Origin: Candidatus Schekmanbacteria bacterium
GTDB taxonomy: Bacteria > CSSED10-310 > JACPHN01
Assembly: GCA_016188575.1 (NCBI GenBank)
Contig: JACPHN010000020.1
Coordinates: 1 to 32,132, forward strand
Length of the DNA stretch: 32,132 bases
Reading direction: 5' to 3'
Shown here: one piece after another, positions 3,422 to 31,287 of the stretch
How the letters are laid out: every line of letters begins with the position of its first letter
How positions within the stretch are numbered: the first letter of the stretch is position 1
Notes under the pieces: generated by a model
What the model was told of the DNA's origin: nothing
The model's input: only the letters and a program-made list of their open reading frames with translations
Databases searched by the model: none
Position numbers and translations under genes: made by a program

Positions 3422-4420
3422 CTATCCCATCACTTGCAGCCGGCGAAGCTCAAGCTCTTCGTACCGCCGCCGCAGCCGGGCACAGGTCGAGAGGCAAACC
3501 GCAACTGCAATGACGCCGAGGAGCAATAGGGTGTACACGACCGCCGCCGCCTGGCCCACCGCGTACCCCGCCACGCCCGCAGTCATCGCCAAAAGCCCCA
3601 TGGCGGCCATCGCCCGCATGCCGCCCAACACCAGGCCGCGCGCCTTCCCCCGCGCTCCCAATGCCCCGAGAATGCTGCAAATGATGCCGAGCAGACTTCC
3701 CGCCAACCCGCCTACCACGCCGCCTCCCTCGGGAGTCCACCACTGGCCGCCCACGAAAAACTGTGCGCGCCACCACGACAAGTCCGCCAGCCGTCCGGCG
3801 CCGACTCCTGCTACGCCTGGCGGGTCCTCCCCACCGGCGAACGCCACGAGCCGGACTGGCCCGAGCTCGACATGCCCGCCTCCGGGCAGCACCACCTCCA
3901 TCTCCACGGCACTCGGCGCCCCTGACTCCGCGGAAAGGTAGAACGGGAGCACATAGCGGCGCCACTCACTCGCACCCGCAATGCGCGCCAGCGGCCCGCT
4001 GTCCGCCATGCCTTTGGTAAAATAGCGGCTCCCGTCCTCAAACACGCTCCACATTTGCAGAAAACCCGGTATCGGCGGCTGCTGATAGCGAATCATCCCC
4101 TCAAGCGCGTAGCTCATGGTCGGGAGGCGCGGCGATGCAATCCCCAGCAGCTTGACCGCGGCCTCTGCCGGGGACTGCTCGGCGTCCACCCGCAAGATCT
4201 CCACCGGCCCCGTTTCCCCAGGAACGTCGCCCGGCGCCACCGAGGCACCCGGAATGCTCGCGACGCGCGCGCTCTGTTCACCCCACGAAACGACAGTCAC
4301 GGTCTCCCGCGCAGCTGCGTCCCCCGCTCCACCCATCACCATCATCCCTGCCAGCGCCACACCGACCACCGTCACGCACACGCCGCCACCCACCGTCATC
4401 GCCCTCCCCTCGGTTCTCAT
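3422..4420 (-). CDS. Membrane protein with beta-rich periplasmic domain, partner of DUF2089 gene
   Basis: A 332-residue protein. The start at 4420 follows AAAGGAG by five bases and overlaps the stop of the upstream DUF2089 gene in an ATGA arrangement, so the two are translationally coupled. A longer upstream frame exists but only antisense-shadows that gene. The N-terminal hydrophobic segment (M-M-V-M-G-G region) is a signal or anchor. Residues about 90-215 are soluble and beta-rich (F-E-D-G-S-R-Y-F-T-K-G; W-R-R-Y-V-L-P-F-Y-L). Two or three membrane helices follow from about residue 235, with a short basic cytoplasmic tail (R-L-R-R-R-Y-E-E). The family is not recognised. Pairing with a small DNA-binding-type protein suggests a regulator and membrane-sensor arrangement, which is inference only. 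Confidence 0.7.
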   Translation of the reverse strand: MRTEGRAMTVGGGVCVTVVGVALAGMMVMGGAGDAAARETVTVVSWGEQSARVASIPGASVAPGDVPGETGPVEILRVDAEQSPAEAAVKLLGIASPRLPTMSYALEGMIRYQQPPIPGFLQMWSVFEDGSRYFTKGMADSGPLARIAGASEWRRYVLPFYLSAESGAPSAVEMEVVLPGGGHVELGPVRLVAFAGGEDPPGVAGVGAGRLADLSWWRAQFFVGGQWWTPEGGGVVGGLAGSLLGIICSILGALGARGKARGLVLGGMRAMAAMGLLAMTAGVAGYAVGQAAAVVYTLLLLGVIAVAVCLSTCARLRRRYEELELRRLQVMG

Positions 4421-4710
4421 CGCGACTCCTTTCGCTCTCGTCCATACGCTTCCCGAAGCAACTTCACCGTGCTCATGTCGAGTCTGCCCTCGACATACAG
4501 CATCCTGAGCTGCTGCTCGAACGGCCCCAGCTCTTCGCCGCTCTCGAGCAACTGCAGCTTCTGTATCAGGCGATCCAGCCGCAGCCGGACCGTCGGGTAA
4601 CTGATCCCATACACCTCCGCAACCGCCTTCAGTGACCCCGACGCCAGCACGAAGTTCTTGACAAAGGTTCGCTCCTCGTCGGTCAGCGCTTCCAACCAGG
4701 TCTGGCCCAC
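4417..4710 (-). CDS. DUF2089 family small HTH protein
   Basis: A 97-residue cytoplasmic protein with a GTG start at 4710 after a strong GGGAGGTGA site. The N-terminal W-L-E-A-L-T-D-E-E-R-T-F-V-K-N-F-V-L-A-S-G-S-L-K and the helix-turn-helix-like A-E-V-Y-G-I-S-Y-P-T-V-R-L-R-L-D-R-L are hallmarks of DUF2089. The C-terminal half is charged and helical (Y-V-E-G-R-L-D-M-S-T). Members are probable transcription regulators often placed beside membrane proteins. Here it is the first gene of a two-gene operon with the membrane protein at 3422-4420 and is divergent from the AAA+ operon. Confidence 0.8.
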   Translation of the reverse strand: MGQTWLEALTDEERTFVKNFVLASGSLKAVAEVYGISYPTVRLRLDRLIQKLQLLESGEELGPFEQQLRMLYVEGRLDMSTVKLLREAYGRERKESR

Positions 4711-4764
4711 TTCTCACCTCCCGCGTCTCCTTCTGAGGGTTAATTTAATTGATCGCAATGTGAG

Positions 4765-4792
4765 AAATAATATCATGTTTATTGAAGTCAAG
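4765..4792 (-). promoter_or_regulatory. Candidate sigma70 promoter of the DUF2089 operon
   Basis: On the minus strand TTGACT (4792-4787) and TATTTC (4770-4765) are 16 bases apart. They lie in an AT-rich stretch (about 4739-4805) that stands out from the GC-rich surroundings, roughly 55 bases before the GTG start. The -10 box is weak. Confidence 0.35.
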
Positions 4793-4854
4793 CTAAATAA
4801 ATCGAAAGTGCCCAGACGCGGCCACAGCGCCACTCTCGCCCGCGCCCACCAGCC

Positions 4855-4883
4855 GAGACACGCCAGAGCGAACGGGATACAAT
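4855..4883 (+). promoter_or_regulatory. Candidate promoter of the three-ATPase operon
   Basis: GAGACA (4855-4860) and TACAAT (4878-4883) are exactly 17 bases apart, 39 bases before the ATG at 4923. The -10 is good and the -35 is partial. No strong ribosome site precedes the ATG. Confidence 0.35.
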
Positions 4884-4922
4884 CGCGGTCGCGCACCAAC
4901 AGCTAACGCTCGACCTGCCGCC

Positions 4923-7900
4923 ATGCCGACGCTTGAACGCTTCTTCGTCCCGATCATCAGAATGCTTACTGCCGGGGGCCACGCTCTGGCCTATCCGCTC
5001 ATGACTCCCGGGGCGCTGTGGCTGACGGCAAGCGCTCATGACGTGGCGGTGAAGCTTGGCAAGTACGTGGAGACGTGCCTGGAGAGTGGCGATCTGAAGC
5101 CCTTGTTGGCGCTGCTGCCGGCGTTCGAGCGCGTTGAATGCGAGCGAATGGAGCTTGATCTGAGCGTGCACAAGGCGACCGGCGACGCCTACGCGCCGGA
5201 CTTTCCTCTCGAAGCTCCGGTCATCCGCGCGAGCGTCGCTGGCGGCACCATGCTCGTGCATGCTCCGACGATCCCGGCGGAAGTTGTGGTTGGCTCGCCG
5301 GAGGAAACCGTCGCCGCGACCGAGGAGGCGGTGCGCGCGGCGCTGGCGCGCCTGAAGCGGCTGCGAAGCGCTGCGGGGTTCCTTCCCGTGCTCTGGTGGA
5401 CGACCGCCGCGGTGACGCAGGAGGAGATCGTCGTTGCGGTGCCGACCGTAACGGAGCTGGCAGGCAAGTCGTCGGCAGGGCGCGAGAGCCTGCTGGCCCG
5501 CGTGGGTGCTCGCCAGACGCCAGGCGAGGGAGAAAAAACCTGGCAGCGGGACGAGGACGTCCTGCGGCTGGCCCGAGCTGTGCGCGGACCGGACCGCCGC
5601 AGCGTCCTGGTCGTGGGCCCCTCGGGCACAGGGAAATCCGCGGTCATCGGGGAGCTGGGACGGCGAAAAACGGAGCTCGAGCTCGGCAAGCTCGTAATCT
5701 GGAGCGCCGGTGCTGCTGGCATCATACGCGGGTTGACCGCACCGGAGGGCTGGCTGGAGAAGCTCGCGCAGCTCTGCGCCGAGCTCCAATCGACCGAGGC
5801 CGTCTTGCACGTTCGCAATTTCGCGCAGCTCTTCGAGATCGGGCGCTATATTGGGAATGACGTTAGCGTGGGCGAGGCGTTGCGCGACCCCATTGCCCGG
5901 CGCGAGATCCAGGTTGTGAGCGAATGCACGGCCGAGGAGCTGACGCGCCTGGAGCTTCGGTATCCGGCGGCGATCGCCAACATGCACGTGCTGCGCCTTT
6001 CCGAGCTCGACGAGGGGGCGCTGCGTGACGCCGTCCGGCGCCGGGCGGCGGCGCTTGCGGAATCCCGCGGGCTGATGATCTCGGACGCTGCGCTCGAGGA
6101 GGTACTTTCGCTTCATTGGCGTTATGCCTCCCATTCCGGGATGCCGGGGAAAGCGCTACGGTTCTTGAGCAGTCTGCTCGCGGCGTTCTCCCGCGCCGGC
6201 ACCAACGTCGTCCAGCGCGCCGACGTCATTGGCGCTTTCTGCGAGCAAACGGGGATCCCTGCCGCGCTCATCGATCCACAGGTTCCGCTCAATCCGGGAG
6301 CCGTTTACACGTTTTTCAGCGAGCGCCTCCTTGGGCAGCCGGCCGCGGTCAGCATCGTGTGCGAGGTGCTGGCGGCGGTCAAGGCGCGGCTGGTGCAAAT
6401 GGGGAAACCCATCGCTTCGCTCTTCTTTGTCGGTCCCACCGGCGTGGGCAAGACCGAGCTGGCAAAGGCGCTCGCGGCCTTTGTTTTTTCGAGCCCGGAC
6501 CGGATGACGCGTTTCGACATGAGCGAATACGCGACTCCGGGTGCCGTGCTGCGCCTCACCGGCGACGATGCCGGGAGCGAGGGGCGGCTGACTGGTGCCG
6601 TGCGCGAGCAGCCGTTCTGCGTGCTGCTGTTCGATGAGCTGGAGAAGGCCGATTCGTCGTTTTTCGATCTGCTTCTGCAGGTGCTCGGCGAAGGGCGGCT
6701 GACGGATGCGCGCGGCAAGGTAGCTGATTTTTCTGCCGCCATCATCATCATGACCTCCAATCTCGGCACGGACACCTATGTCTCGGGGCGCGTCGGTTTT
6801 GGCGACGGCGACGCCGGCGGCGGCTCAGTGGATCTGCCCAGTCATTTTGAACGCGCGGCTCAGCAGGCGTTTCGCCCCGAGCTGTTCAACCGCATCGATC
6901 GTATCGTGCCGTTTGCCTCGCTGTCGCCGGCTGACGTGAGAGCGGTGCTGGAGCGCGAGCTAGGGCGCCTGGCCGGCCGCGAGCCGGTGCGGCGAGGCGC
7001 GGTGGCGATCGAGGTCGCGGCGGCGGCCAAGGAGATCATCGCGGCGCGCGGTTTCGACGCCAAGCTCGGCGCTCGTCAGCTTCAGCGCGCGGTGAGCGAC
7101 TCGTTACTCGTGCCAATTGCAGAATGCATGAGCCAGTACGGCGGCGCCGGGCGTCTCGTCGCGCGTGCGGAGACGCGGGCCGAGGCCGGTGCGCTGGCCA
7201 TCACGGTGCGTGAAGGCGATCCCTGGCCCGCGGGCGGCCGCATCCGTATCGACGAGCACGGACGAAAGAGAGTTCCAGCGGATGGTGCGACCAGCCGGCG
7301 GTGGTACTTCGACCAGGTGTACTATGGATCGGTCTATTGCCAGCTCCTCAGCCAACTGGACATCTTGGAGCACCGCAAGGAGGCAAGCGGAGAGGCATTT
7401 TGGGAGAGCTCCGAGCAAGCCGCGCGGTATTCACATCTGCTCGCCGTGCGCTGCGAAGGCGAGGCGCTGTTGCGTGAAATCGAGGAGCTCGAGGATCAGG
7501 CCGTGGCACACTTGCTCGGAGCGGGCGGACATGAGGTTGGCGAGGAGCAGCTTGCGCAGATCGATTCCCGACACCACCTCTACAGGGTGCGGCTTTATGC
7601 CGCCGTGTTCCTGGCGGCCAACTGCTGCACGATCGGCGTTTACGGCTCGGACGCATGTGTCGGCGATGCGGCCCGCACCTACATCAGCGTGGCGCGCCGC
7701 CGCGACTACCGCGTGAAGGCGCGACTGGTGCTGGCATGGGACGAGGCGGCGGCCGACCCGGTCGCGGCGCACCCTGAGCGTCCAGGGCGGAGAAAGGAGC
7801 GACCACCAACCGCCCCGGTGGATCCCGTCGCGTTGGCATCGGTCCCGAGCGGCAAGAAGCGTCCGCCTACCGTGGAGTGGAAGCTCGAGCCTGCCATCGC

Positions 7901-8237
7901 TCCCTTCCCGAAGGAGCGCGTGTTCGGGGTCGAGCTGCAGATCGATGGCCCCTGCGCGGCCGATTTCTTTTCGCCGGAGGGTGGTGTCTACGAGTATGGA
8001 GGGCGAGTGGACCAGCGCGTCTTCGTCTGTGTCAGCAAGGGCGGCCTGAATTCCTTTAAGACCCCGGAGAGCTATATGCGCAAGACCCTCGTGGAACCGT
8101 CACCTCGCCGCACCATCTACGCAACGCAGATCCATGACGAGCAGTTTGATGAGCTAGGCCCCGGTGAGTATGACGCGCTGCTCGCCGAGATCCTCCTCTG
8201 GCGGTTGCTCTACTACCTCTCGGAAGAGTTGCTATAG
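4923..8237 (+). CDS. Clp/Hsp100-like double AAA+ ATPase A with release-factor-like C-terminal region
   Basis: 1104 residues. Residues 1-210 are not the Clp_N repeat domain and resemble the N-termini of the next two genes. D1 starts with Walker A G-P-S-G-T-G-K-S (232-239), but the Walker B position reads V-L-H-V-R-N-F, without the acidic pair. There is no ClpB-type middle domain. D2 is complete: linker F-S-E-R-L-L-G-Q, Walker A G-P-T-G-V-G-K-T (504-511), Walker B L-L-F-D-E (568-572), sensor 1 T-S-N (611-613), arginine finger F-N-R-I-D (655-659) and sensor 2 G-A-R (716-718). The D2 pore loop lacks the G-Y-V-G tyrosine (L-T-G-D-D-A-G-S-E-G). Residues about 790-1104 are an extra region resembling the PCRF domain of release factors: A-R-R-R-D-Y-R-V-K near 924 and G-P-C-A-A-D-F-F-S-P-E-G-G-V near 1009. 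There is no GGQ motif. It is first in an operon of three paralogues; cellular role unknown. Confidence 0.85.
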   Translation: MPTLERFFVPIIRMLTAGGHALAYPLMTPGALWLTASAHDVAVKLGKYVETCLESGDLKPLLALLPAFERVECERMELDLSVHKATGDAYAPDFPLEAPVIRASVAGGTMLVHAPTIPAEVVVGSPEETVAATEEAVRAALARLKRLRSAAGFLPVLWWTTAAVTQEEIVVAVPTVTELAGKSSAGRESLLARVGARQTPGEGEKTWQRDEDVLRLARAVRGPDRRSVLVVGPSGTGKSAVIGELGRRKTELELGKLVIWSAGAAGIIRGLTAPEGWLEKLAQLCAELQSTEAVLHVRNFAQLFEIGRYIGNDVSVGEALRDPIARREIQVVSECTAEELTRLELRYPAAIANMHVLRLSELDEGALRDAVRRRAAALAESRGLMISDAALEEVLSLHWRYASHSGMPGKALRFLSSLLAAFSRAGTNVVQRADVIGAFCEQTGIPAALIDPQVPLNPGAVYTFFSERLLGQPAAVSIVCEVLAAVKARLVQMGKPIASLFFVGPTGVGKTELAKALAAFVFSSPDRMTRFDMSEYATPGAVLRLTGDDAGSEGRLTGAVREQPFCVLLFDELEKADSSFFDLLLQVLGEGRLTDARGKVADFSAAIIIMTSNLGTDTYVSGRVGFGDGDAGGGSVDLPSHFERAAQQAFRPELFNRIDRIVPFASLSPADVRAVLERELGRLAGREPVRRGAVAIEVAAAAKEIIAARGFDAKLGARQLQRAVSDSLLVPIAECMSQYGGAGRLVARAETRAEAGALAITVREGDPWPAGGRIRIDEHGRKRVPADGATSRRWYFDQVYYGSVYCQLLSQLDILEHRKEASGEAFWESSEQAARYSHLLAVRCEGEALLREIEELEDQAVAHLLGAGGHEVGEEQLAQIDSRHHLYRVRLYAAVFLAANCCTIGVYGSDACVGDAARTYISVARRRDYRVKARLVLAWDEAAADPVAAHPERPGRRKERPPTAPVDPVALASVPSGKKRPPTVEWKLEPAIAPFPKERVFGVELQIDGPCAADFFSPEGGVYEYGGRVDQRVFVCVSKGGLNSFKTPESYMRKTLVEPSPRRTIYATQIHDEQFDELGPGEYDALLAEILLWRLLYYLSEELL

Positions 8238-8245
8238 GCCCGGAG

Positions 8246-11200
8246 ATGAGCCCCAGGAGAGTGAACCCAGAAGTACAACGCGTCGAGCTCGCATTTCCCG
8301 CCTTGGTGGACCGTAGGTACGACGACCGTGGCATCCGCCTCTACCGAGTCCGGCCGTTGTTTCGCACCGAGCCGGTGGCGCTGAGCCCGAGGTTCGAACG
8401 CGCGGTGACGCGCCTGCGCGCCCACATCCAGGACGACTTCAGCGGCACCAGACTCGCCCAAGACTGGCTCGACGAGCTCTTTTGGCTGCGCTTTGACCCG
8501 GACCTCGCCTTCGACCTGATGCCGATCGACGTCACCGTCGGGCGTGTTTCCCTTGCCGGCAAGGTCGCGGTGGCTACCTTCTCGGTTGCGGGACAGCAAT
8601 TCGCGTGCCTTCCGGGGTTCGAGGCGCACTTTTTCGAGGTCGCGCCGCGCAACGCAGGGGGCCGCGCTTTGCAGGAGGAGCTCGTCGAGCAAGTTACAAG
8701 CTGGGTGCGCGGCCGGAAAAAGCGCTCCAAAGTCTCGGACTGGGAGGTGTTCCTGACGGATTCCGCCGCATTTGTCACTCCCATCCGCGTCGAGGTCGCC
8801 ATCCTGCCAGGCGAGTTCGGACCGGGACCGGTCTCCGCGGCCGAGCGCTATTTCTTTGGCCCGCAGATGCGGGAATTCAGCGGCGAAACGGAGCTTCGGG
8901 CGGTTTCCACCGAGCTCAACCGCCGGTATCCCGTCGATCTGCGCCGCGCGCTTCTCCGCGATCCCCTGGTGGAGTCGCTGGAGCGGGCGCTGCTCGGAGG
9001 TTCCGGCGAATCCGTCGTGCTCGTGGGTCCGCTGGGCAGCGGCAGGACGACGCTGGTGCACGAGGCGCTGGCACGCCACCTGGACCACCGCAAGCTGAGC
9101 CGCGGCGGCCCCGAGTATCGGGTCTTCCACGTCGATCCCAACCGCGTGGTCGCTGGAATGTCGGTCGTCGGGGACTGGGAGCGGCGGTGGGAGGCGATTC
9201 TCGACGAGCTGGGTCGCCGGCGCGGTGGCGGGACCCAGCCGAGCCCACTCCGGATGTTCGTCGATAACCCTCTGGCGCTGCTCCGCGTCGGGCGCACCGC
9301 TCAAGGCGCGCTGTGCCTCGCCGATGTCATGAAGGACTACGTCGACTCCGGGCGGGTGCGCGTCGTGCTCGAAGCCACTCCGCAGGAGTGGCGGCAGGTC
9401 CAGGAACTGGACCGCGGCTTCGCCGATCTGTTTCGGGTGATCCGGGTGCCCCCCGCGACGATCGAGGAGACCGTGCGCATGGTGACCGCGCACCGCCGGC
9501 GCATTGAAACCAGCGAGGGAACGAACCGACCGCACCTGACCAACCTCGGCCTGGATCGCATCTTCTATCTCTACCGCACCTACCTGAGCCAACGGGCGTT
9601 GCCGGGCGCCGTAGTCGACCTCGTCGACGCGGTGACGGCTCGCCCTTCGGAGGCCGGCTCGGAATATAGTTTTTCTGAGGTCGAGGTGGTGAAGACGTTC
9701 AGCAGATCCTTCAATTTCAGCGCGCGAATCGCCGATCCGGATGCGCGCCTCGAGGCCGCCGAGGCCCGCCGCTGGTTTTCGGCGCGCCTCATCGGCCAAG
9801 ACGAAGCTGTGGAGGCTCTGGTCGCGGCGGTTCTCCTGCTCAAGAGCGGTCTTCGCGACCCCGCTCGGCCAGTTGCCACCTACCTGTTCGTCGGCCCCAC
9901 GGGGGTGGGGAAGACGGAGGCCGCCAAGGTTCTGGCCCGCTTTCTGTGCGCGGAAAGGGACTCAAACTTCATTCGCTTCGACCTGAATACGTTTAACGGC
10001 CCGGACGCCGCGGCCCGCCTGATCGGTTCGGACTCCGGCTCCGACGGCCAGCTCACGAGCCGGGTCCAGTTGTTTCCGTTCTGTGTCTTGCTGCTCGACG
10101 AGATCGAGAAGGCGGATCCGTCGGTCCATGATCTGCTGCTGCAGGTGCTCGGGGAAGGACGGCTGACGGATGCTCGCGGGCGCCTGGTCGACTTCACGAA
10201 TGCGATCATCATCATGACGTCGAACGTGGGTGCGCGCGAAGCGTCCCAGGCATTGGGGTTCGCGCAATCTGGCGAACGGCTGGCGACGGCGTACGCCCGC
10301 ATGCTGCAGCGGACGTTTCGCCCGGAGCTCGTCAACCGCATCGATCGCATCGTGACGTTTCGCCATCTCGATGCGGCGGATATCCGCCTCATTGCGCGCC
10401 GCCAAATCGATGAGCTGGTCGCGCGCCCCGGGTTTGCGCGCCGGCACACGATCTTGAACCTGTCCGACGCGTATATGGAACGGGTGGTCGCGCTAGGGTT
10501 CGATCCCAATCTCGGTGCACGGGCGCTTCGCCGGCGCTTGGAAGCCGATATCGCCCGCGCGGCAGCCAGCGTCCTGGCCGCCGATACGTTGCTGTCGCCG
10601 GCGCTGCTCGAGCTCTCGCTGGATGGTGAGACGTCGAGGTCTGCGGTGACGCCGCTGCGTTTCGCTCGACCCTGGGTCAACCTGGATCATCTCGGCACAC
10701 CAGAACCGGTGGAGGCGGCGGTGGTAGCGGCGCTGGAGGAGCGGCTGCTGCGCGCCGAAGAGCGGGTGCAGGCGGCGATCGATACCGAGCAGCGGGCGCC
10801 CCACGTTCACCTCGGCGAGCTCTACATGCTGCGGGATGCGATCTCCGCCAAGACCGCCAAGGCGCGCGCCAAACTTGATTTTCTCGCCAAGCGCCGCGCA
10901 GGCCCGCCGCCGCGGCCCCGCGGCAATGTGCGGAGGCGTCCCGGCCGGTGGCGCGTTCCCGACATCACGCCTGCGTTTTCCGGCCATTCCGGGGAGCTCA
11001 TCGAGCTTCTGCTCAGCCGTTTCGAGGCGGCCCCGGAGGCTCCGTTCAGCGCCGACGACGAAATTACGGCGCTGGCCATGGCGGCCGTCTTCTTGGAGGA
11101 GCAAGCGGAAATCCTGTGTGGCGGCGCCATCGCCGAGGCACTGGCGCTGGCATCTCTGGTCACCGGGCGCGGCACCGAGGAACGCGACTACGTTACTACC

Positions 11201-11590
11201 TTTCAACTGCGCATGCTGGGCCACGCCGGGCTCGGCGACGGAACTGCGGCGGCGGATCTGTCCATCCGCGATTCTGGACGCGTTCACGCCACGGAGGCAT
11301 CGCACCTGCTCCGGGGCGAGGTTGGCATCCACCTCGTCGTGCGCGGCACTGAGCGCATCGTGCCCGTGATTGCGCAACCGGCGGGAGACCGCACCGCAAA
11401 GCCGCCGGTTCATGGCGAGCTGCCTCCCGTCGTCCGCGTGTACTGCCTGACAGCGGCCGATGCCGAGACCGGGGTCCTCTTCGACCTGCGCTCCGGGCTC
11501 GCTCAGCGCCTTCCGCTCGAACCCGAGAACGCCCGCGTGCTCTACTACGCCAGTGTGGCGGCCGCGGCCCGCGGAGGCGCCCCCAAATGA
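8246..11590 (+). CDS. Clp/Hsp100-like double AAA+ ATPase B with release-factor-like C-terminal region
   Basis: 1114 residues, eight bases after gene A. The start is uncertain: GGAG abuts the ATG at 8246, and a GTG 15 bases on has AGGAG one base upstream. Residues 1-235 match the N-terminal plan of A and C (Y-R-V-R-P-L-F near 33, then M-P-I-D-V-T-V near 92). The D1 Walker A is altered, G-P-L-G-S-G-R-T (261-268) with Arg for the catalytic Lys, and Walker B reads F-V-D-N, so D1 probably does not hydrolyse ATP. D2 is intact: G-P-T-G-V-G-K-T (550-557), L-L-D-E (616-619), T-S-N (658-660), V-N-R-I-D (696-700) and G-A-R (757-759). Its pore loop reads I-G-S-D-S-G-S-D-G, again without tyrosine. After D2 come a charged helical stretch (about 820-885), a Pro/Arg linker (885-903) and a region with E-R-D-Y-V near 979 and R-G-E-V-G-I-H-L-V-V-R near 1023, recalling PCRF domains. 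Confidence 0.85.
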   Translation: MSPRRVNPEVQRVELAFPALVDRRYDDRGIRLYRVRPLFRTEPVALSPRFERAVTRLRAHIQDDFSGTRLAQDWLDELFWLRFDPDLAFDLMPIDVTVGRVSLAGKVAVATFSVAGQQFACLPGFEAHFFEVAPRNAGGRALQEELVEQVTSWVRGRKKRSKVSDWEVFLTDSAAFVTPIRVEVAILPGEFGPGPVSAAERYFFGPQMREFSGETELRAVSTELNRRYPVDLRRALLRDPLVESLERALLGGSGESVVLVGPLGSGRTTLVHEALARHLDHRKLSRGGPEYRVFHVDPNRVVAGMSVVGDWERRWEAILDELGRRRGGGTQPSPLRMFVDNPLALLRVGRTAQGALCLADVMKDYVDSGRVRVVLEATPQEWRQVQELDRGFADLFRVIRVPPATIEETVRMVTAHRRRIETSEGTNRPHLTNLGLDRIFYLYRTYLSQRALPGAVVDLVDAVTARPSEAGSEYSFSEVEVVKTFSRSFNFSARIADPDARLEAAEARRWFSARLIGQDEAVEALVAAVLLLKSGLRDPARPVATYLFVGPTGVGKTEAAKVLARFLCAERDSNFIRFDLNTFNGPDAAARLIGSDSGSDGQLTSRVQLFPFCVLLLDEIEKADPSVHDLLLQVLGEGRLTDARGRLVDFTNAIIIMTSNVGAREASQALGFAQSGERLATAYARMLQRTFRPELVNRIDRIVTFRHLDAADIRLIARRQIDELVARPGFARRHTILNLSDAYMERVVALGFDPNLGARALRRRLEADIARAAASVLAADTLLSPALLELSLDGETSRSAVTPLRFARPWVNLDHLGTPEPVEAAVVAALEERLLRAEERVQAAIDTEQRAPHVHLGELYMLRDAISAKTAKARAKLDFLAKRRAGPPPRPRGNVRRRPGRWRVPDITPAFSGHSGELIELLLSRFEAAPEAPFSADDEITALAMAAVFLEEQAEILCGGAIAEALALASLVTGRGTEERDYVTTFQLRMLGHAGLGDGTAAADLSIRDSGRVHATEASHLLRGEVGIHLVVRGTERIVPVIAQPAGDRTAKPPVHGELPPVVRVYCLTAADAETGVLFDLRSGLAQRLPLEPENARVLYYASVAAAARGGAPK

Positions 11591-13857
11591 CCGCATCCGT
11601 GCACTACCCGCTACTCTGCTGGCCCCTCGCCAACGGCCAATTTCTCGGCAGATTGCTGTTTACCCCATATTCCGCCATGGAAAGCGGGGCGAAGAAGCTC
11701 AGATCGGAGCTCGGGGCGCGCGTCAAACGCGAGCTGATTCAGGCCGGCGAGCTGTTCCCGCCACCGATCGATGCGCCCCAGCTCAAGGTCGTGCGCGTGA
11801 CGATTTCGCCCAGCCATCGCTCCGAGGACAGCAGCGTCCTGGCGCCTCGGGCCGTCACGATTTCGATCCCGGCGGTCTGGGGTCAGAGCGACGACGGGTA
11901 CTTCCTTTGCGTGATCCCCGACTTCGACTATCACCTCTATGTCTACGAGGCCAAGAAGATAGAGGCGACGGTGCTTGCCGCAGCCGTCCAGGCGCTTGCA
12001 GAGACGCCACCGGAGGACCTGTACCGCCTGGCGCTGCGGCCTCTCCCGACCCTGGATGTGATCACGGTGCGGTTTCCCGACCGCGATGAAACGGCGGATG
12101 CGCGCGCTGAGCGCCTGCTCGACGAGGGAAAGCTGGCGGCCGTAGCCGACCCCTACCCTCGGCCACGAGCGGTGACGCATCGCAAGGGGGCGCTGCCCGA
12201 GGCCGCTTGGGAGCGATCTGCGCTCGTGGAGCAGGTGGTTCTCGAGCTGACTCGGGAGTACACGAGCCTGCTGCTCGTCGGCGAGCCGGGAACCGGCAAG
12301 AGCGTGATACTCGCGGACGCGGCGGGGAAGGTGCTACGAGCGAGGAGAGACGACGAGAACCCGGCGCGCCGACTCTGGCACACCTCGGCGCGCCGCCTGA
12401 TCGCCGGCGCGAAATACCTCGGCGATTGGCAGGAGCGGTGTGAGGAGCTTTTCGGCTGCCTCGCCCGCCTCGACGGGATCCTGTGGATCAGCGACTTTGT
12501 GGAGCTCATCCGCGCCGGAGGACACAGCCCCGAGGATTCGGTCGCGGCGTTCATGACCCCGTTCCTGGCTGATGGACGGCTCCAAGTCGTCGCCGAGGTT
12601 CGCCCGCGTGAGCTCGACGCCGCGCAGGCCATGCTCCCTGCCTTCACGAGCCGCTTTCGCCGGCTCCTCGTGCCGGACATGGACCGCGCGCAGGTCATGC
12701 GCGTGCTCGACCAGCTCGGCCTCTATACTGCCGAGAGCCTGGGGGTGACCGTCGGCCCGGTCGCTCGCCAGACCGCATATCGGCTGATGGACGATTTTGC
12801 TCGCTACCAGGCATTCCCCGGCAAGGTTGTCGCACTTCTCGGCAAGTGCATCGAGCGGGCGAAGGACACCGGCAGCACCGCGGTCTCACCGGCCGACGTC
12901 GTTGCCGAGCTGTCGCAATCGCTGGGAATGGCGGAAAACCTGGTGCGGGACGACGTGCCCCTGACGGAGGCTGCGATTCGCTCGCATTTTGCCGAGCGCA
13001 TCATCGGCCAGACTCAACCGATCGACGCCTTTTGTCAGGCGCTACTGCAATTCAAGTCCGGTTTGTGCGACCCGCGACGACCGATCGCGACGCTGCTCTT
13101 CACGGGTCCAACGGGCGTGGGGAAGACCGCGGCGGTCCGCGCTCTGGGCGAGCTCATGCACGGCCGCGGGTCGCGTTTCGACCCCCTGGTGCGCCTGGAC
13201 ATGAGCGAATACCAGCATGCGGGCCAGGTCGAGCGGCTGATCGGGACGCGCACCAGCGAGCCGAGCAAGCTAATCCGCGACGTCCGCGAGCGACCCTACG
13301 GCGTCTTGCTTCTTGACGAGATCGAAAAGGCCCACGCGTCGATCTTCGATGCGCTGCTGGGATTGCTCGACGAGGGTGTGCTCCACGACGCCTATGGGCG
13401 CGTCACGGATTTCCGCAGCATGATCATCGTCATGACCTCCAATCTAGGAGCGGAGAAGGGGCGTGCCATCGGCTTTGGGGATGCCGGCGGGAGTAATCGG
13501 TACCTGTCGAGCGTCCGCGAGTTTTTCCGGCCGGAACTGGTCAACCGGCTGGACCATATCGTGGTTTTTCAACCGTTGACCGAAGAGCACGTCCGCGCCA
13601 TTGCGACACGCGAGCTCGGGCTGCTCGGGCGGCGCGAGGGGCTATCGCGGCACCATCTGAAGCTCACGTTTACCGACGGCGTGCGCGATCTGGTGGTGCG
13701 TCGGGGATTCGACCCGGAGCTCGGCGCACGGCCGCTGCAGCGCGCCATCGAGCGTCTCGTCGTCGCGCCGCTCACGCGTTTTCTGCTGCAGCGACCCGGG
13801 CTCGAGGCGCGCACGCTGGCGCTGGAGTGCGATGGCGAGCGGGTTTACGTAAGGTAG
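11587..13857 (+). CDS. Clp/Hsp100-like double AAA+ ATPase C
   Basis: 756 residues. The ATG at 11587 overlaps the stop of gene B by four bases, implying coupled translation. Residues 1-210 share the N-terminal plan of A and B. D1 is the most Clp-like of the three: Walker A G-E-P-G-T-G-K-S (232-239) and pore-loop region L-I-A-G-A-K-Y-L-G-D-W-Q-E-R with its aromatic retained. Walker B reads L-W-I-S-D-F, with Phe in place of Glu. D2 is intact: G-P-T-G-V-G-K-T (507-514), L-L-L-D-E-I-E-K-A-H (Asp577, Glu578), T-S-N (617-619), V-N-R-L-D (652-656) and G-A-R (713-715). The D2 pore loop is I-G-T-R-T-S-E-P-S, without G-Y-V-G. A-I-G-F-G-D near 627 lies where ClpA and ClpC carry their ClpP-docking tripeptide. 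There is no C-terminal extension. It probably works as part of a hetero-complex with A and B (inference from operon and shared design). Confidence 0.87.
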   Translation: MTASVHYPLLCWPLANGQFLGRLLFTPYSAMESGAKKLRSELGARVKRELIQAGELFPPPIDAPQLKVVRVTISPSHRSEDSSVLAPRAVTISIPAVWGQSDDGYFLCVIPDFDYHLYVYEAKKIEATVLAAAVQALAETPPEDLYRLALRPLPTLDVITVRFPDRDETADARAERLLDEGKLAAVADPYPRPRAVTHRKGALPEAAWERSALVEQVVLELTREYTSLLLVGEPGTGKSVILADAAGKVLRARRDDENPARRLWHTSARRLIAGAKYLGDWQERCEELFGCLARLDGILWISDFVELIRAGGHSPEDSVAAFMTPFLADGRLQVVAEVRPRELDAAQAMLPAFTSRFRRLLVPDMDRAQVMRVLDQLGLYTAESLGVTVGPVARQTAYRLMDDFARYQAFPGKVVALLGKCIERAKDTGSTAVSPADVVAELSQSLGMAENLVRDDVPLTEAAIRSHFAERIIGQTQPIDAFCQALLQFKSGLCDPRRPIATLLFTGPTGVGKTAAVRALGELMHGRGSRFDPLVRLDMSEYQHAGQVERLIGTRTSEPSKLIRDVRERPYGVLLLDEIEKAHASIFDALLGLLDEGVLHDAYGRVTDFRSMIIVMTSNLGAEKGRAIGFGDAGGSNRYLSSVREFFRPELVNRLDHIVVFQPLTEEHVRAIATRELGLLGRREGLSRHHLKLTFTDGVRDLVVRRGFDPELGARPLQRAIERLVVAPLTRFLLQRPGLEARTLALECDGERVYVR

Positions 13858-16243: not shown

Positions 16244-19200
16244 CTATGCCACTGCTGCCGCAAAGGCCGCGAACAGGTCGCCCGGCAACGCGTGCGCGAG
16301 GCGCCATGTAACCGCCATAGGTAGCTCGGATTCATGCCGCACGTAGCTGGCGGGGCCGAGGAAGTAAAAGGCGCGTTGGTCGCTCCGCAGGCGAGCGAAG
16401 AGCATGACGGACGAGCCGAGCTCCTCATGGCGTTGGTATCGGTGGCCCGTCTCGCTTGCGGCGCGCGTGACGGATTGGCTCTCCCAGTGGATGAGCTCCG
16501 GGCTGATCGCGAAGTCCCGATAGCGGGTCGTGGGAGAGAACTCCCCCCGCGTCTTGTCGAGCGTGAACGCCAGCAGATCAGCCTCGGCGTCCTTTGCCCA
16601 GTAAACACCGGTCTGCCACGGTGCTGCCTTGGCCCCGCCTCCGACTCCGAAGGCCGCGAGGATTTCGATGCGCGTGTAGCGAGCGTGGACCTGCAGGGGG
16701 ACGTCAGGATGCGTCGCGAGCGGCCACGAAAGGTGCTGGATCCGCTCGGCCAGCGCGTCGAGCAGGGCGATCAGCTCAGCGCACACCTGGGGATGGCTCC
16801 ACAGCAGAGAGCACCCCTCGGCCAAAGTGGCGGACTTCGTCACCGCCTTGTCGACAAGGGATGCGACCACCATGCGCAGGAGCCTTCGCTCTCGCTCGCT
16901 GAGCCGTCGCAGATCGGGGGGACGAGAGGTCTGGAGGAGGCGGCGGACCGTCTGGATCCGCGCGGCGTCGTCGATATGCAGCAATCTTCCGCACGCCCGT
17001 CGCAGCGCTTTTTCTCGAGGCCCGGCCTGCAGGACGGCGAGGCCGGCGTCCTCGCACAGGTCGGACCAGCACTTGCATCCCGCGTAAAGCTCCTCGAGCT
17101 CGAGCCCGGTGGCATCGAGATAGCCCGCGAGCGATGGGGCGTGTACGTTCCGGGCGAGCGCCCTGAGCTCATCCACCTTGGCTGACCACCGCGAAGGCAC
17201 GGATTCGCGGATGCTCGCCAGCACGATCTCCTGCGCGACGCGGTCGAGGTCCATGTGGCAGCCCGCGGGGAGGAACGGGAAGCCTTCGCTCACCTGCTCC
17301 TGGACGTCGCGCCTGCTGCCGCCGAGCAACGCGCGGAAGCGTCTGTCCAGCCGAAACTCGCGGCGGTGGTGCCCTACGAAATCCAGGACCGTGCAGGCCG
17401 ACTTGCCTCTGCTGCGGCGCAGGCCCCGGCCGAGTTGTTGCAGGAACAAAGTCGGGCTGTCCGTCGGGCGCAGCATCAGCAAGGTGTCCACCGCGGGAAC
17501 GTCGACTCCCTCGTTGAAGAGATCCACCGAGAACACGACGTTGACGCGGCGCGCCGCGAGGTCGGTGAGGGCAGCGGTGCGCTCGTCGGGCGGTGTGTCG
17601 GACCAGATGGCAGTCGCGGGGATACCCTGCTGCTGAAACACTCGGGCCATGAACCGCGCGTGGTCCACGCTGACACAGAAGCCGAGCGCCCGCATCGTCG
17701 CGATGGAATCTACGCGACGGTCCAGCTCCTTCAGGACGAGCCGTGCCCACGCGTCGTTGCCCGTGAGCAGGCTCGACAGACCATCGACATCATAGCCACG
17801 CCCTCGGCGCCACGGGACGTCGCGAAAATCGAGCCCGTCGTGGATGCCGTAGTAGATGAAGGGCACCAGACGGCGCTGGTCGATGGCATCCCAGAGCCGC
17901 AGCTCGGCGGCAATGCGGCCGTCGAACCACTCCAGGATCGGCAGCCCGTCGCTCCGCTCGGGCGTGGCCGTGAGCCCGAGCAACTCCGCCGGGCGCAGAT
18001 GCTCGAGCAGTGCCTTGTACGACGCGGCGGCGGCATGATGGAACTCGTCCACTACGATGACGTCGAAGTGCTCGGGATCGATGTGAGCAAGGCCCGTCGC
18101 GCTCAGACTCTGGATGGAAGCGAAAACGTGCTCGAAGCGGTTCGGGTGCTCGCCATCAACCCACAGCTCGCCGAAGGTGTGGTCCCGCAGCGCATATCGG
18201 AGTGTCGCCCGGCTCTGCCGCAAGATCTCCTTGCGATGCGCCACGAAAAGGAGCCTGGCCCGCGGCAGCTCGTCCCGAAGTCGCGCGTAGTCGAGCGCGG
18301 CCATCACCGTCTTTCCGGTGCCCGTCGCAGACACCAGCAGGTTGCGGTGGTGGCCAAGGCGACGAGCGAGCGCCACCTGCTCGAGAAGCCGCTCCTGAAA
18401 CGGTTCGGCACGAAGCTCGGTGGGGCCAAGCACGATGGTGGCGTCCGGTTTGCGCGACGCCTGGCAGCACACCTCGAACTTGTGCCTGTCGTACGGCTCG
18501 AAGTCGTCGCTGTTCCAGTAGCTTTCGAAGACGGCCTGCACCTTGTCGACGACGCTGGCATTGCGGGCCGCAGACACCCGGACGTTCCACTCCAGCCCGC
18601 TGATCTGCGCCGCGCGCGTGAGATTCGAGGAGCCGATGTAGGCGGTGGAGAACCCGGAGTGGCGGTGGAAAAGCCACGCCTTTGCGTGCAGCCGTGTTCC
18701 CGTCAGATCGTAAGAGACCCGGACGTCGCCGCCAAGCTCTCGGAGCGCCTCGAGTGCGCGCGCCTCGGTGGAGGCGGTGTATGTTGTCGTGAGCACTCTG
18801 AGAGCGCGACCGGCGGCGCAGTGATCCTGAAGCGCCGCCAGCATCGGCGCGATCCCGCTCCGGCGAATGAACGCCATCACCAGATCGATCCGGTCGGCGG
18901 AGCAAATCTCGGCGACGATCTGGTGTCCGACGCGCGGTTCGCCGGGCGCATTGGTGAGCAGCGTGGTATCCAGGAGCGGGATCAGCGGCTCACGAATCGT
19001 CTCAGGCCGACCGTCGGGCAAGCGGCGCTCAACGGCCCGAAGGACCTCGCCTGGCATGACCGGTCGCTCGGGGAACAGGTCCGGTACGGCGACCGCCTGA
19101 CCTATGAGGTCGATCAATTTTCGGGCAAGCGACGTGCCCACAGCGGCTCGCTCTCGCTCGTCGATGGCTGCGATTGCCCTCTCGATGATGCGGGCGAGGT

Positions 19201-19339
19201 GCAGTGCGATCCGATCGGCTGCCTCGGCGGGGCGAAGGCCGGTCCTGCGCGTCTCGAGGTGGTCGCTCAGCTCGTGGAGCTCCAACTCCAGCGCCTCGGT
19301 GACCAGCACCTCGAAAAGTCCGCGCTCGCATCTTGCCAT
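16244..19339 (-). CDS. Phospholipase D-like / DEAD-box helicase with DUF3427 region
   Basis: 1031 residues from the ATG at 19339; the longer open frame upstream reads through the PAP2 fossil and is not coding-like. Order: a helical N-terminus (1-120); one PLD nuclease-type domain with H-A-K (218-220) and I-G-S-S-N-L-T; helicase motif I S-A-T-G-T-G-K-T (337-344), motif II D-E-F-H (431-434), motif III L-T-A-T-P; the second RecA lobe with F-N-E-G-V-D-V-P and motif VI Q-Q-L-G-R-G-L-R-R (634-642); then a C-terminal region to 1031 of the DUF3427 type, containing W-E-S-Q and Y-F-L-G-P-A. This is the widespread PLD-DEAD-DUF3427 protein, often found in defence or mobile regions and thought to act on nucleic acids. 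No methylase or other partner lies beside it. The ribosome site is weak. Confidence 0.88.
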   Translation of the reverse strand: MARCERGLFEVLVTEALELELHELSDHLETRRTGLRPAEAADRIALHLARIIERAIAAIDERERAAVGTSLARKLIDLIGQAVAVPDLFPERPVMPGEVLRAVERRLPDGRPETIREPLIPLLDTTLLTNAPGEPRVGHQIVAEICSADRIDLVMAFIRRSGIAPMLAALQDHCAAGRALRVLTTTYTASTEARALEALRELGGDVRVSYDLTGTRLHAKAWLFHRHSGFSTAYIGSSNLTRAAQISGLEWNVRVSAARNASVVDKVQAVFESYWNSDDFEPYDRHKFEVCCQASRKPDATIVLGPTELRAEPFQERLLEQVALARRLGHHRNLLVSATGTGKTVMAALDYARLRDELPRARLLFVAHRKEILRQSRATLRYALRDHTFGELWVDGEHPNRFEHVFASIQSLSATGLAHIDPEHFDVIVVDEFHHAAAASYKALLEHLRPAELLGLTATPERSDGLPILEWFDGRIAAELRLWDAIDQRRLVPFIYYGIHDGLDFRDVPWRRGRGYDVDGLSSLLTGNDAWARLVLKELDRRVDSIATMRALGFCVSVDHARFMARVFQQQGIPATAIWSDTPPDERTAALTDLAARRVNVVFSVDLFNEGVDVPAVDTLLMLRPTDSPTLFLQQLGRGLRRSRGKSACTVLDFVGHHRREFRLDRRFRALLGGSRRDVQEQVSEGFPFLPAGCHMDLDRVAQEIVLASIRESVPSRWSAKVDELRALARNVHAPSLAGYLDATGLELEELYAGCKCWSDLCEDAGLAVLQAGPREKALRRACGRLLHIDDAARIQTVRRLLQTSRPPDLRRLSERERRLLRMVVASLVDKAVTKSATLAEGCSLLWSHPQVCAELIALLDALAERIQHLSWPLATHPDVPLQVHARYTRIEILAAFGVGGGAKAAPWQTGVYWAKDAEADLLAFTLDKTRGEFSPTTRYRDFAISPELIHWESQSVTRAASETGHRYQRHEELGSSVMLFARLRSDQRAFYFLGPASYVRHESELPMAVTWRLAHALPGDLFAAFAAAVA

Positions 19340-19439
19340 TGGCCGAAGTGTAGCCGTAGGGGTGGCGTGGGCGCAATGAAATGAGGTGATGGCCTTGTCG
19401 CCGCACGGGGTGGCACGGGGCGCGATCGTGCGTCGACTG

Positions 19440-19613
19440 TGAGGCCTCTTCGGGAACGCCCGCTGGCGAGCCCCGGACGGATCGGGCCCGGAGACGCAAC
19501 ACACCCAGCGCGACTGCGGTTCCGATGACTGCCCCGGCGAGCACATCGCTGGGAAAATGGACGCCCAGGCAGACCCTGGAACGCGTCAGCGTGGTACTTT
19601 CTCCATCGAACAT
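19440..19613 (-). pseudogene. PAP2 phosphatase C-terminal fossil
   Basis: The minus frame reads T-L-T-R-S-R-V-C-L-G-V-H-F-P-S-D-V-L-A-G-A-V-I-G, followed by a hydrophobic helix and a basic tail. S-R-x5-H-x3-D is the third catalytic motif of PAP2 acid phosphatases. Motifs one and two and all preceding membrane helices are missing, so only the last part survives. It lies between the helicase and the cas fragments. Confidence 0.75.
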
Positions 19614-19798: not shown

Positions 19799-20542
19799 GT
19801 GGATGCGATTCTCCGCCGCGACCGTGTCTCGCTACCCCTGATCGAAGTCGACTTCAGCGAGTTTCCGGACATTGGCAAGGTCAGCTCGCTGGAGGCGCCG
19901 CACCGCATCGCCGACGCGATTCTTCGTGACAGCGTGGACGCCAGTGGCGTCAAGTTCCGCGATACTGCCGTGGGATCCAGCTTCGTGGATGCCAGCCCCG
20001 CCAACGCCACCGGTCTCTTCGAGTGGTGTCCAACGGCGCTTGTCCTTGGGATGTGGGACTCGACAGGGCCCAAGGGCGGCAAGGGAGCCAAGTTCCCGCG
20101 GGCGATCGCCTCGGAGATCGTGGGTATCGACGTGCAGACGGGAGTGAGAACGCAGAGCCGCATCGATCCGCTTCAGATTCCGCTGGACAAGACTGCCGAG
20201 GAGCATCGCGACATCGCTGCGCAGACGACATTGGCTGCCCTGGCATTGTGTGGCGCCATGCTCGCCCAGGCCGATGGTTTCGACCTGCGCTCGCGCTGCC
20301 TGCTGGTCCCTTCGAGCGCCCCACGCTGGGAGCTCATTGGCGCTGCCGCAGACTCCGTCACGCCATTCAGTCTCTCCTCCGCCGAGGCGATCGCGCTCCT
20401 CGAACAGTCGGTTGCCGCCGCGACCGCCCAGGGGCTGCGCTGGGCCAGGACTCCGCTGACCCTCCAACCGATTCCCGATTTGGTCGAGCTCGTTCGCAAG
20501 ACCCGCGAGCTGGCGGCGCGAAGCGTGCCCGCGAGCGTGTGA
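19799..20542 (+). CDS. csb1: Csb1 (Cas7-type) protein of type I-G CRISPR-Cas, shortened and probably decaying
   Basis: 247 residues opening V-D-A-I-L-R-R-D-R-V-S-L-P-L-I-E-V-D-F. Csb1 hallmarks follow: S-L-E-A-P-H-R-I-A-D-A-I-L-R-D-S, C-P-T-A-L-V-L-G-M-W-D-S-T-G-P-K-G-G, R-A-I-A-S-E-I-V-G-I, S-R-I-D-P-L and D-L-R-S-R-C-L-L-V-P. Csb1 is the backbone subunit of the type I-G (formerly I-U) Cascade. Two defects are visible. The usual N-terminal segment appears only as a frame-shifted trace upstream (V-E-Q-V-A-E-T-M-N-E-A at about 19763-19795). Right after S-R-I-D-P-L-Q-I the middle segment, expected to contain an N-H-G-N-like motif, is absent although the frame stays open. The GTG start has no clear ribosome site. 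It is followed directly by a csb2 fragment; no cas3, cas8, cas1, cas2 or array lies nearby. Confidence 0.8.
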   Translation: MDAILRRDRVSLPLIEVDFSEFPDIGKVSSLEAPHRIADAILRDSVDASGVKFRDTAVGSSFVDASPANATGLFEWCPTALVLGMWDSTGPKGGKGAKFPRAIASEIVGIDVQTGVRTQSRIDPLQIPLDKTAEEHRDIAAQTTLAALALCGAMLAQADGFDLRSRCLLVPSSAPRWELIGAAADSVTPFSLSSAEAIALLEQSVAAATAQGLRWARTPLTLQPIPDLVELVRKTRELAARSVPASV

Positions 20543-20652: not shown

Positions 20653-20854
20653 CCCCGGACTTGCGCAAAACGTCGAGCACTCGCCTGCTGCGGAAGGTCC
20701 TGCCCTCGTTATCACCGATGCGGGCGACCCGGTCGTAGGCCGCGTAGACGATCGTCTCGACCTGGGTCGTCGGCTGCAGTTGCCCGCTGCACCCGGCACA
20801 CCAGGCCAACGCGGCCGCCAGGAGCCGCATCGCGGCTGTCCGGGCGCTAGCCAT
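20642..20854 (-). CDS. Small lipoprotein-like ORF, possibly a truncated fragment
   Basis: 70 residues, with the ATG at 20854 overlapping the end of the Uma2 gene by eight bases; a second ATG nine residues in starts a cleaner signal peptide (M-R-L-L-A-A-A-L-A-W). A lipobox-like C-A-G-C-S-G follows. The rest, Y-A-A-Y-D-R-V-A-R-I-G-D-N-E-G-R, faintly recalls YD-type repeats. The 3' end lies across the csb2 break point, so the gene may be the truncated start of something larger. Confidence 0.4.
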   Translation of the reverse strand: MASARTAAMRLLAAALAWCAGCSGQLQPTTQVETIVYAAYDRVARIGDNEGRTFRSRRVLDVLRKSGAKP

Positions 20855-21455
20855 TTCGCAGCGCGCGCAGGTACTCGCGAATGGCGCGGTTGGCGGTGGG
20901 CTGATCCAGAAAGCTCACGAGCTGCTCGAGATCGATGCCGGCGAGGACCTCGCTCTGCACAATCTGCTCGTAGCGCTCCCCGGTGAGGCGATGGACGCTG
21001 ATCGCGCCCCGCCGCCAGAACCAAACCTCGCGAACGCCGAGCTTGCGATACACGTCTAGCTTGTCGACGCCGCCGCTGGTCCACACCACCTCGATTGCAA
21101 GGTCAGGCCGCTCGCGCTTCCCGACCTCGCCGAACACGTAGCACTCGTCCGGCTCGACGCCCCGCTGCGCCTCCTTCCTGGAGAGCGTCCAGGATCCGAA
21201 AACCGTGAATTCGACGCTGCGCTCTAGGCACCACACCTCGACCAGACGTCCGATCACCGATATTATCCGCTCGTGGCCGCGCGACGGGCTCATGAGCTGA
21301 AGGATTCCTTCCAGGTAGGTTATTCGCGGCGCGGACGTGTCACCGCGGATGGCCAGCAACCGCTCGTAGTCCTCCCAGGTGGCACCGCTGAGCACGACGA
21401 AGTGGTCTTCCTGCGGGGTGTCGTCTCGCGTGGCCAGCTCTTCGAGGGCGTACAT
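20847..21455 (-). CDS. Uma2 family (DUF820) restriction-endonuclease-fold protein
   Basis: 202 residues from the ATG at 21455, just after AAGGGAGGG. Family marks are W-E-D-Y-E-R-L-L, Y-L-E-G-I-L-Q-L-M-S-P-S-R-G-H-E, V-E-P-D-E-C-Y-V-F, and the PD-(D/E)xK-type core P-D-L-A-I-E-V-V-W with K and Y-R-K-L-G-V-R-E-V-W-F-W. These are expected catalytic residues of a PD-(D/E)xK nuclease fold, but the cellular role of Uma2 proteins is unclear. It lies 12 bases downstream of the SUKH-NTF2 gene on the same strand, so the two are probably co-transcribed. Confidence 0.88.
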   Translation of the reverse strand: MYALEELATRDDTPQEDHFVVLSGATWEDYERLLAIRGDTSAPRITYLEGILQLMSPSRGHERIISVIGRLVEVWCLERSVEFTVFGSWTLSRKEAQRGVEPDECYVFGEVGKRERPDLAIEVVWTSGGVDKLDVYRKLGVREVWFWRRGAISVHRLTGERYEQIVQSEVLAGIDLEQLVSFLDQPTANRAIREYLRALRNG

Positions 21456-30900: not shown

Positions 30901-31023
30901 AACAACCTCCTCAGCTTGGTCTGGTCAGCATGGTCGCTTCCTCCTGCAAGCTTCCGCCTTCAGGCGGGAGAAGCTGATGGGGCGGAAGGACATCCAAACA
31001 CGGAATACGTATTACATCTTAGC

Positions 31024-31144: not shown

Positions 31145-31287
31145 GGCCGCAGAACCACCTTGGCACCGAGCAGCCCATCGAGACGGGAGCCGCATGTGGT
31201 TTGCTCGCGCCCCCTCTCAGGCGGCCGGAAAAATGTCCCGTAGTGGTGCTATCCTCGGATCAGCACTCCGCACGAAAGGACCCGACT

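Follow-up and report, generated by a model that had tools for sequence, protein, structure and literature searches.

A recurrent three-gene set of Clp-like AAA+ proteins with tails derived from release factor RF2 in uncultured bacteria

The three-gene locus

The window analysed here is a whole 32-kb contig (C133) of a 9.2-Mb MAG with an estimated completeness of 93.8 percent and a contamination of 3.7 percent. Its central feature is a set of three genes, P1, P2 and P3, where P1 and P2 are separated by 8 bp and P2 overlaps P3 by 4 bp (ATGA). This tight packing and the coordinates of the open reading frames (Table 1) are as the first-pass annotation had described them, and the codon composition of all three is of the coding type. 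Each protein contains the Pfam families AAA_2 (E values of 1.7e-38, 5.2e-39 and 8.5e-36 for P1, P2 and P3 respectively) and ClpB_D2-small which, together with complete D2 motifs, place the trio in the broad Clp/Hsp100 type of AAA+ proteins. No Clp_N was found among the best 25 families listed (E up to 1), and no clpP, clpS or type VI secretion gene was identified across the window, in agreement with the earlier reading. That reading was incomplete in its description of the proteins: it had missed that D1 is degenerate and that the pore loop of D2 is shortened, and it had noted neither the pseudo-RF2 tails nor the HicB-like N-domain. The composition of the trio and the domain assignments given below are well supported.

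Table 1. Coordinates of the trio genes, their predicted modules, neighbouring features and related loci (positions refer to the window unless a locus is named)
Feature	Position	Strand	Description or basis
Membrane protein	3422-4420	-	divergent from operon
DUF2089-type helix-turn-helix regulator	4417-4710	-	DUF2089 HTH, E 1.6e-19
Intergenic region upstream of operon	4711-4922		shared with divergent DUF2089-type regulator
P1	4923-8237	+	1104 aa; predicted N-domain, inactive D1, active D2, RF2-derived tail
P1 N-domain	4923-5522	+	aligns with P3 N-domain; very low identity
P1 D2 AAA module and small domain	6315-7163	+	predicted ATP-hydrolysing; domain matches and motifs
P1 C-terminal module, degenerate RF2	7164-8234	+	remnants of domains 1 and 2/4; GGQ and SPF absent
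P2	8246-11590	+	1114 aa; predicted N-domain, inactive D1, active D2, RF2-derived tail
P2 N-domain	8246-8941	+	aligns with P3 N-domain; very low identity
P2 D2 AAA module and small domain	9779-10606	+	predicted ATP-hydrolysing; domain matches and motifs
P2 C-terminal module, degenerate RF2	10607-11587	+	P2-only profile, hhalign, DLRTG
P3	11587-13857	+	756 aa, tailless; predicted N-domain and active D2, D1 pore loop KYLG-W intact
P3 N-domain, HicB-like fold	11587-12186	+	AlphaFold2 model, structural matches; fold level only
P3 D2 AAA module and small domain	12982-13821	+	predicted ATP-hydrolysing; domain matches and motifs
Helicase with PLD-like nuclease and DUF3427 domains	16244-19546	-
Gene matching only second part of Csb1 (Cas_GSU0053)	19799-20542	+
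Uma2-type nuclease	20847-21455	-
Uma2-type nuclease	30790-31839	+
Trio of L113	3187-6555, 6552-9863, 9860-12133
Trio of L115	3043-6279, 6276-9689, 9686-11935
Single-gene Clp with nearly full-length RF2	L071:3857-7894, L072:5513-9544, L073:12768-16853, L076:8602-11685		no GGQ at catalytic position
P1 orthologues	L125, L115, L113, L111, L112, L137, L140, L141
P2 orthologues	L125, L127, L115, L114, L113, L111, L112, L138, L139
P3 orthologues	L108, L109, L110, L113, L114, L115, L125

Relationship to ordinary Clp ATPases

The scores of P1, P2 and P3 against the NCBIfam equivalogs fall far below the cut-offs, with 235, 299 and 282 bits for ClpB (TIGR03346, cut-off 1232), 220, 308 and 263 bits for ClpA (TIGR02639, cut-off 993) and 179-218 for ClpV/TssH (TIGR03345, cut-off 885). 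The D1-D2 region spans 545-555 aa in the trio, as in ClpA (543-544 aa), and is shorter than that of ClpB (663-689 aa); therefore, a coiled-coil middle domain is absent, as had been noted from the sequence beforehand. When the AAA region was placed in a careful maximum-likelihood tree, the trio grouped with its single-gene relatives in a clade apart from ClpA, ClpB and ClpC with support of 100/100, and a quick tree separated them likewise. A tree of this kind had been suggested in the first-pass annotation, and it groups no trio member with ClpA, ClpB or ClpC. Ordinary orthologues of ClpA, ClpB, ClpC and ClpV were thus ruled out by the NCBIfam scores and, for the first three, also by the tree.

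Within the AAA region, P1, P2 and P3 share 31-33 percent identity with one another, and their identity to ClpA, ClpB and ClpC of the same genome (26-31 percent) is barely lower. The window's genome also encodes an ordinary ClpA and an ordinary ClpB, both of which pass the NCBIfam cut-offs, and the trio is therefore an additional set. Its motor is a sister of the known Clp motors.

Recurrence and co-retention of the trio

Within the genus, family, order and phylum to which the window belongs, sequence searches gave no relatives of the trio beyond the window's own genome, and seven other genomes of the phylum gave no match at the cut-off used. As these searches of near relatives were empty, a domain-wide sample was searched, followed by a P3-specific peptide pattern. 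The search of the domain-wide sample (386 genomes) with P1 returned relatives in tandem in two genomes, both from a single genus, each locus holding three consecutive relatives. The pattern, derived from P3 and its counterpart, gave 16 loci in the named genome collection which span Myxococcota, Saprospiraceae, Planctomycetales, Verrucomicrobia, Holophagae and several proteobacteria. The named carriers of the trio are all MAGs, with taxa as labelled in their records. MAGs recorded as Myxococcota, Acidobacteriota, Verrucomicrobiota, Planctomycetota, Pseudomonadota and Bacteroidota hold orthologues of all three proteins, for the most part in one gene order, and the trio is found across about seven bacterial phyla. 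The ordered trio was observed in Holophagae (L113), Myxococcota (L125, L119 and L116), proteobacteria (L115 and L123), Verrucomicrobia (L112) and Planctomycetales (L111), where 4-bp overlaps between the genes are frequent. The question raised earlier of whether the three genes recur together in the same order is thus answered by many genomes. An expansion private to one lineage was ruled out by the recurrence in other phyla. Searches of plasmids, phages and viral contigs gave only generic Clp proteins among the matches listed, with little or no coverage of the N-domain.

With a trio profile, three trio-level genes were found in all twelve of the genomes reached by the P3-specific search. Complete trios were also observed where the genes are unlinked, in two Saprospiraceae and one proteobacterial MAG (G391, G392 and G400). 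The three genes of G391 lie on three separate contigs, P1 and P2 of G392 (Saprospiraceae) are about 400 kb apart on one contig with P3 on another, and G400 carries two different trios, the third gene of each being on another contig. The retention of all three genes while unlinked is strong evidence of mutual dependence. In one lineage the trio is kept in each of the five genomes examined.

Three types of trio were found in the tree: the window falls in type I, the group of G134 and G387 makes up type II, and L121-L123 are of type III. Every subunit forms its own clade within each type with bootstrap values of 99-100 in the careful tree. The distance matrices of the type I subunits are correlated with pairwise r of 0.80, 0.92 and 0.84. 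Of 5040 permutations, 8, 5 and 4 respectively attained these values, to which common species history contributes. P1, P2 and P3 are apparently mutually dependent, as both the unlinked retention and the matching subunit trees support.

Conserved motifs and pore loops of the AAA modules

The first-pass annotation had assigned complete D2 motifs to each protein, and Walker A, Walker B, sensor 1, arginine finger and sensor 2 were indeed found in P1, P2 and P3; they are kept throughout the trio proteins with few exceptions in type III. Its count of two AAA+ modules per protein also stands, but D1 is predicted to be catalytically dead in all three. Walker A of D1 is mostly kept, the Walker B glutamate is replaced (R-N or T-N in P1, D-N in P2, S-D and similar in P3) and the arginine fingers are lost, so that the Walker B D-E and arginine fingers of a hydrolysis-competent D1 are missing from the motif table of the trio.

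The pore loops have changed in both modules. The GYVGY loop of D2 is deleted group-wide and all trio members have a shortened loop with no conserved aromatic residue. In D1, the pore-loop aromatic (KYLG-W) was observed to be invariant in P3-type proteins (11 of 11), variable in P2 and lost in P1. Taken with established knowledge of AAA+ proteins, this pattern therefore predicts a non-hydrolysing D1 tier, a hydrolysing D2 tier and an asymmetric contact with the substrate. The divided labour which had been proposed for the three proteins is supported, because the subunits differ in the D1 motifs they have lost and in whether they have lost the RF2 tail.

A [LIV]G[FL] loop which faces ClpP in other systems is found as VGF in P1, LGF in P2 and IGF in P3, at the position of the IGL loop of ClpA and the VGF loop of ClpC. 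Most orthologues keep this [VIL]GF loop; it is lost in P1 of Saprospiraceae and altered in other subunits. The single clpP of the window's genome is located on contig C182, not on the window's contig.

C-terminal tails

P1, P2 and most of their orthologues extend 320-430 residues beyond D2, and the last 330-360 residues of P1 and P2 form the region which we assign to RF2. A tail on P3 is absent in types I and III and present in type II. Pfam called the release-factor domain PCRF above the cut-off in three relatives, including a protein on contig C225 of the window's genome (E 2.1e-8) and one in the Myxococcota MAG G134, and not in P1 or P2 themselves, for which profiles of orthologues and structure established the RF2 identity. 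With the P1 tail at its head, a profile built from family tails without release factors matched RF2 in the PDB with an E value of 7.5e-13, where the first 26 matches are all release factors. P2-type tails alone gave RF2 at 7.9e-4 with all of the top 19 matches being RF2. For P1-type tails alone RF2 was the best match at an E value of only 0.05; the RF2 signal of the P1 tail is weak by this profile, and its identity comes from the structure and the wider-family profiles.

Against a bridge profile made from RF2 and single-gene tails, hhalign gave 96% for the P1 tail (E 5e-9, score 72) and 88% for the P2 tail (E 3e-6, score 52), while 30 column-shuffled controls for each reached scores of at most 17 and 15 respectively. 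The predicted structure of the P1 tail has a pLDDT of 66 overall and of 70-95 in its core, and its matches in the PDB at ranks 1-29 are all RF1 or RF2 with Z of about 10. The DLRTG of RF2 domain 4 is conserved in the P2 alignment, and the tails show the PCRF and domain 2-4 fold of RF1 and RF2. From these profiles and models it is well supported that the P1 and P2 tails are degenerate forms of RF2. A sequence check found neither GGQ nor SPF in P1, P2 or P3; they are therefore expected neither to release peptide nor to read stop codons.

For four single-gene relatives (L071-L073 and L076) the alignment extends over almost the full length of RF2, with hhalign values of 99.7 and 99.3 percent, and the single sequence of L071 found RF2 in the PDB at 9e-22. 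In their alignment the GGQ and SPF loops are gone and the domain-4 tail is kept. This single-gene form is possibly ancestral to the trio, and its nearly complete RF2 suggests an evolutionary path from fusion to triplication.

N-terminal domains

The AlphaFold2 model of the P3 N-domain has a pLDDT of 83.9 and a pTM of 0.73. Its top 11 structural matches were all HicB-family or HicB-like proteins with Z of 9.0-5.2, the next match being at 4.9. This assignment comes from a second-look structural aligner, as Foldseek alone gave no significant match for this domain and the N-domain pieces matched no Pfam family, HicB included, at E up to 5. The predicted resemblance of P3 to HicB is thus at fold level only. 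The N-domains of P1 and P2 probably correspond to that of P3; for P1, this assignment is based on alignment and common position.

Host genome and neighbourhood

A decayed second copy of the trio was observed on a 162-kb contig of the same genome (C150:73752-74081; locus L037:9753-10081), where a fragment of P2 D2 (80% identity, residues 623-673) is joined to the C-terminus of P3 (79%, residues 699-756). The remainder is deleted and the nucleotide identity to the window is 82-83%. The protein on C225 (locus L035:7983-11444) is a single-gene sibling with an N-terminal hydrophobic segment which has the same degenerate D1, the deleted D2 pore loop and the PCRF/RF2 tail; a counterpart is found at L077:8671-12090. 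Together, the decayed copy and this sibling speak for the operon being part of this lineage. Another Clp-like protein of the genome (contig C245; locus L036:9233-12703, reverse strand; 1156 aa) has a TPR-like N-terminus, adjoins an iron-sulphur ferredoxin-type gene and is of a lineage separate from the trio.

The DUF2089-type regulator and membrane protein upstream of the operon were absent beside the other trios examined, so their association is not conserved. Downstream, the helicase, the Csb1-like gene and the pair of Uma2 genes give the neighbourhood a defence-like or mobile appearance. An open reading frame at 21468-23062 on the reverse strand has a sigma-54 activator ATPase domain whose start is apparently truncated (profile positions 56-163); it overlaps the next open reading frame in another frame and is possibly a broken gene. 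In G134 (L068:8288-19001) the trio is followed directly by type I restriction genes and a DUF3226 gene, of which HsdM was assigned by Pfam and HsdS and HsdR by eye.

Comparison with known systems

The trio resembles ClpA, ClpC and ClpB in its two AAA modules, Pfam families and D2 catalytic residues, and ClpA and ClpC also in the [VIL]GF loop. It differs from them as a separate clade of three different subunits with no Clp_N or middle domain, a D1 predicted to be dead, a deleted GYVGY, RF2-derived tails and HicB-like N-domains. The homology of the tail to RF2 (PrfB) takes in the helical domain 1 together with the core of domains 2/4, but the tail lacks GGQ and SPF and is fused to an AAA motor. 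Like ClpV/TssH, the trio may be a stand-alone Clp-type remodeller with no tie to ClpP, although no type VI genes are nearby and the TIGR03345 score is below the cut-off. The HicB antitoxin is the best fold match of the P3 N-domain with a sequence-family match undetected, and no HicA partner was seen for the trio.

Pex1/Pex6 is a two-tier heterohexamer in which D1 lacks canonical Walker B and arginine fingers and D2 is active (PMC4490564). The tiers proposed for the trio are similar by analogy only, as Pex1/Pex6 is a eukaryotic classical AAA protein of two subunits with substrate-binding motifs in D2. Balon, a release-factor homologue with no GGQ, binds to the A site of bacterial ribosomes (PMC10901736), and docking on ribosomes by a pseudo-RF2 is therefore plausible; Balon belongs to the aeRF1/Pelota family, is unrelated to RF2 and has no motor. 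No description of a Clp-RF2 fusion or a three-subunit Clp was found in the open-licence literature searched. In the analysis of release factors by Burroughs and Aravind 2019 (PMC6514570), the word 'Clp' never occurs, and its passages on AAA+ proteins and fused domains hold no such fusion. The composition of the trio thus has no counterpart that we found in the searchable literature.

Proposed function and alternatives

We tentatively favour an obligate hetero-oligomeric, D2-driven remodelling motor which docks on ribosomes through its pseudo-RF2 tails, a reading to which we give somewhat short of an even chance. In this proposal, P1, P2 and P3 would be subunits of one two-tier AAA+ machine, most likely a mixed hexamer. 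The D1 tier would bind nucleotide with no hydrolysis and serve assembly, and the D2 tier would convert ATP hydrolysis into force. Contact with the substrate in the pore would be asymmetric, with P3 alone reliably offering an aromatic D1 loop and GYVGY being gone from D2. The HicB-like N-domains would form the upper face, and the pseudo-RF2 modules of P1 and P2 would hang from the D2 face, which elsewhere is the docking face for ClpP. These modules would most likely tether the ring to ribosomes or translation complexes with no release of peptide, and the motor may then remodel or clear stalled or idle complexes. What the data show is the set of three genes, how it is conserved and co-retained, its own clade, the loss of motifs and the homology of the tails to RF2; the hetero-hexamer, the roles of the tiers, the ribosome contact and the substrate we infer.

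The docking step itself is possible, with the balance tipped a little against it. The SPF (stop-codon) and GGQ loops are lost and the ribosome-touching surface may be lost with them, P3 has no tail in two of the three trio types, and no translation gene was found as a conserved neighbour at the loci annotated. With the pore loop of D2 deleted, threading of the classical kind is in doubt, which favours remodelling, or partial pulling by way of the P3 loops, over processive degradation. The same hetero-oligomeric motor could instead use its RF2-derived and HicB-like modules as protein-protein scaffolds and disassemble a non-ribosomal complex, like ClpV, NSF or Pex1/Pex6. This we consider unlikely, if still a serious alternative: the loss of GGQ and SPF, the structural look of the residues kept across the tails (the G, E.G.H and D positions), the missing translation neighbour and membrane-anchored single-gene relatives such as that on C225 would all suit it, whereas single-gene relatives keep almost the whole of RF2 including domain 4, which is more than a generic scaffold needs.

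Coupling to ClpP is quite improbable in our view. A hetero-unfoldase which docks on the single ClpP through its [VIL]GF loops and degrades specific substrates would account for the tripeptide at the ClpA/ClpC loop position in most orthologues and for the one clpP of the genome, but the loop is lost or altered in some subunits, bulky tails occupy the face on which ClpP would dock, the pore tyrosine of D2 is gone and clpP is unlinked at all loci seen. An anti-phage or conflict system, in which the motor and the pseudo release factor act on translation during infection, seems a shade more improbable still. Its patchy spread across phyla, the decayed second copy, the restriction system after the trio in G134 and the Uma2 nucleases, Csb1-like gene and PLD-like helicase of the window would fit; against this, neighbours at other loci are not defence-like, the lineage with the trio in all five genomes points away from it, PADLOC gave no full-length match (D2-limited matches to DolB and PDC-M37B only), and genes that can be unlinked are unusual for defence cassettes. 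Hsp100 proteins usually form homohexamers, and each trio protein has a complete D2. Three independent homohexameric chaperones which share an operon by chance are nevertheless highly improbable, as this would leave unexplained the unlinked co-retention, the matching trees and the complementary motif losses.

Implications

More broadly, the trio may represent an as yet undescribed class of obligate three-subunit AAA+ machine in bacteria which arose from a Clp-RF2 fusion, where pseudo-release-factor arms engage ribosomes and a heteromeric, partly dead ring remodels ribosomes or nascent chains; we regard this as possible and rather doubtful. The Hsp100 motors of bacteria are regarded as homohexamers. 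If the conserved heteromer is true, bacteria would have a counterpart to the design of Pex1/Pex6 or of the proteasomal Rpt proteins, and the reasons why AAA rings turn heteromeric could be studied in a tractable system. The fusion of a Clp motor with a catalytically dead RF2 links protein-remodelling machinery directly with translation factors and may point to an unrecognised form of ribosome handling in uncultured bacteria of about seven phyla.
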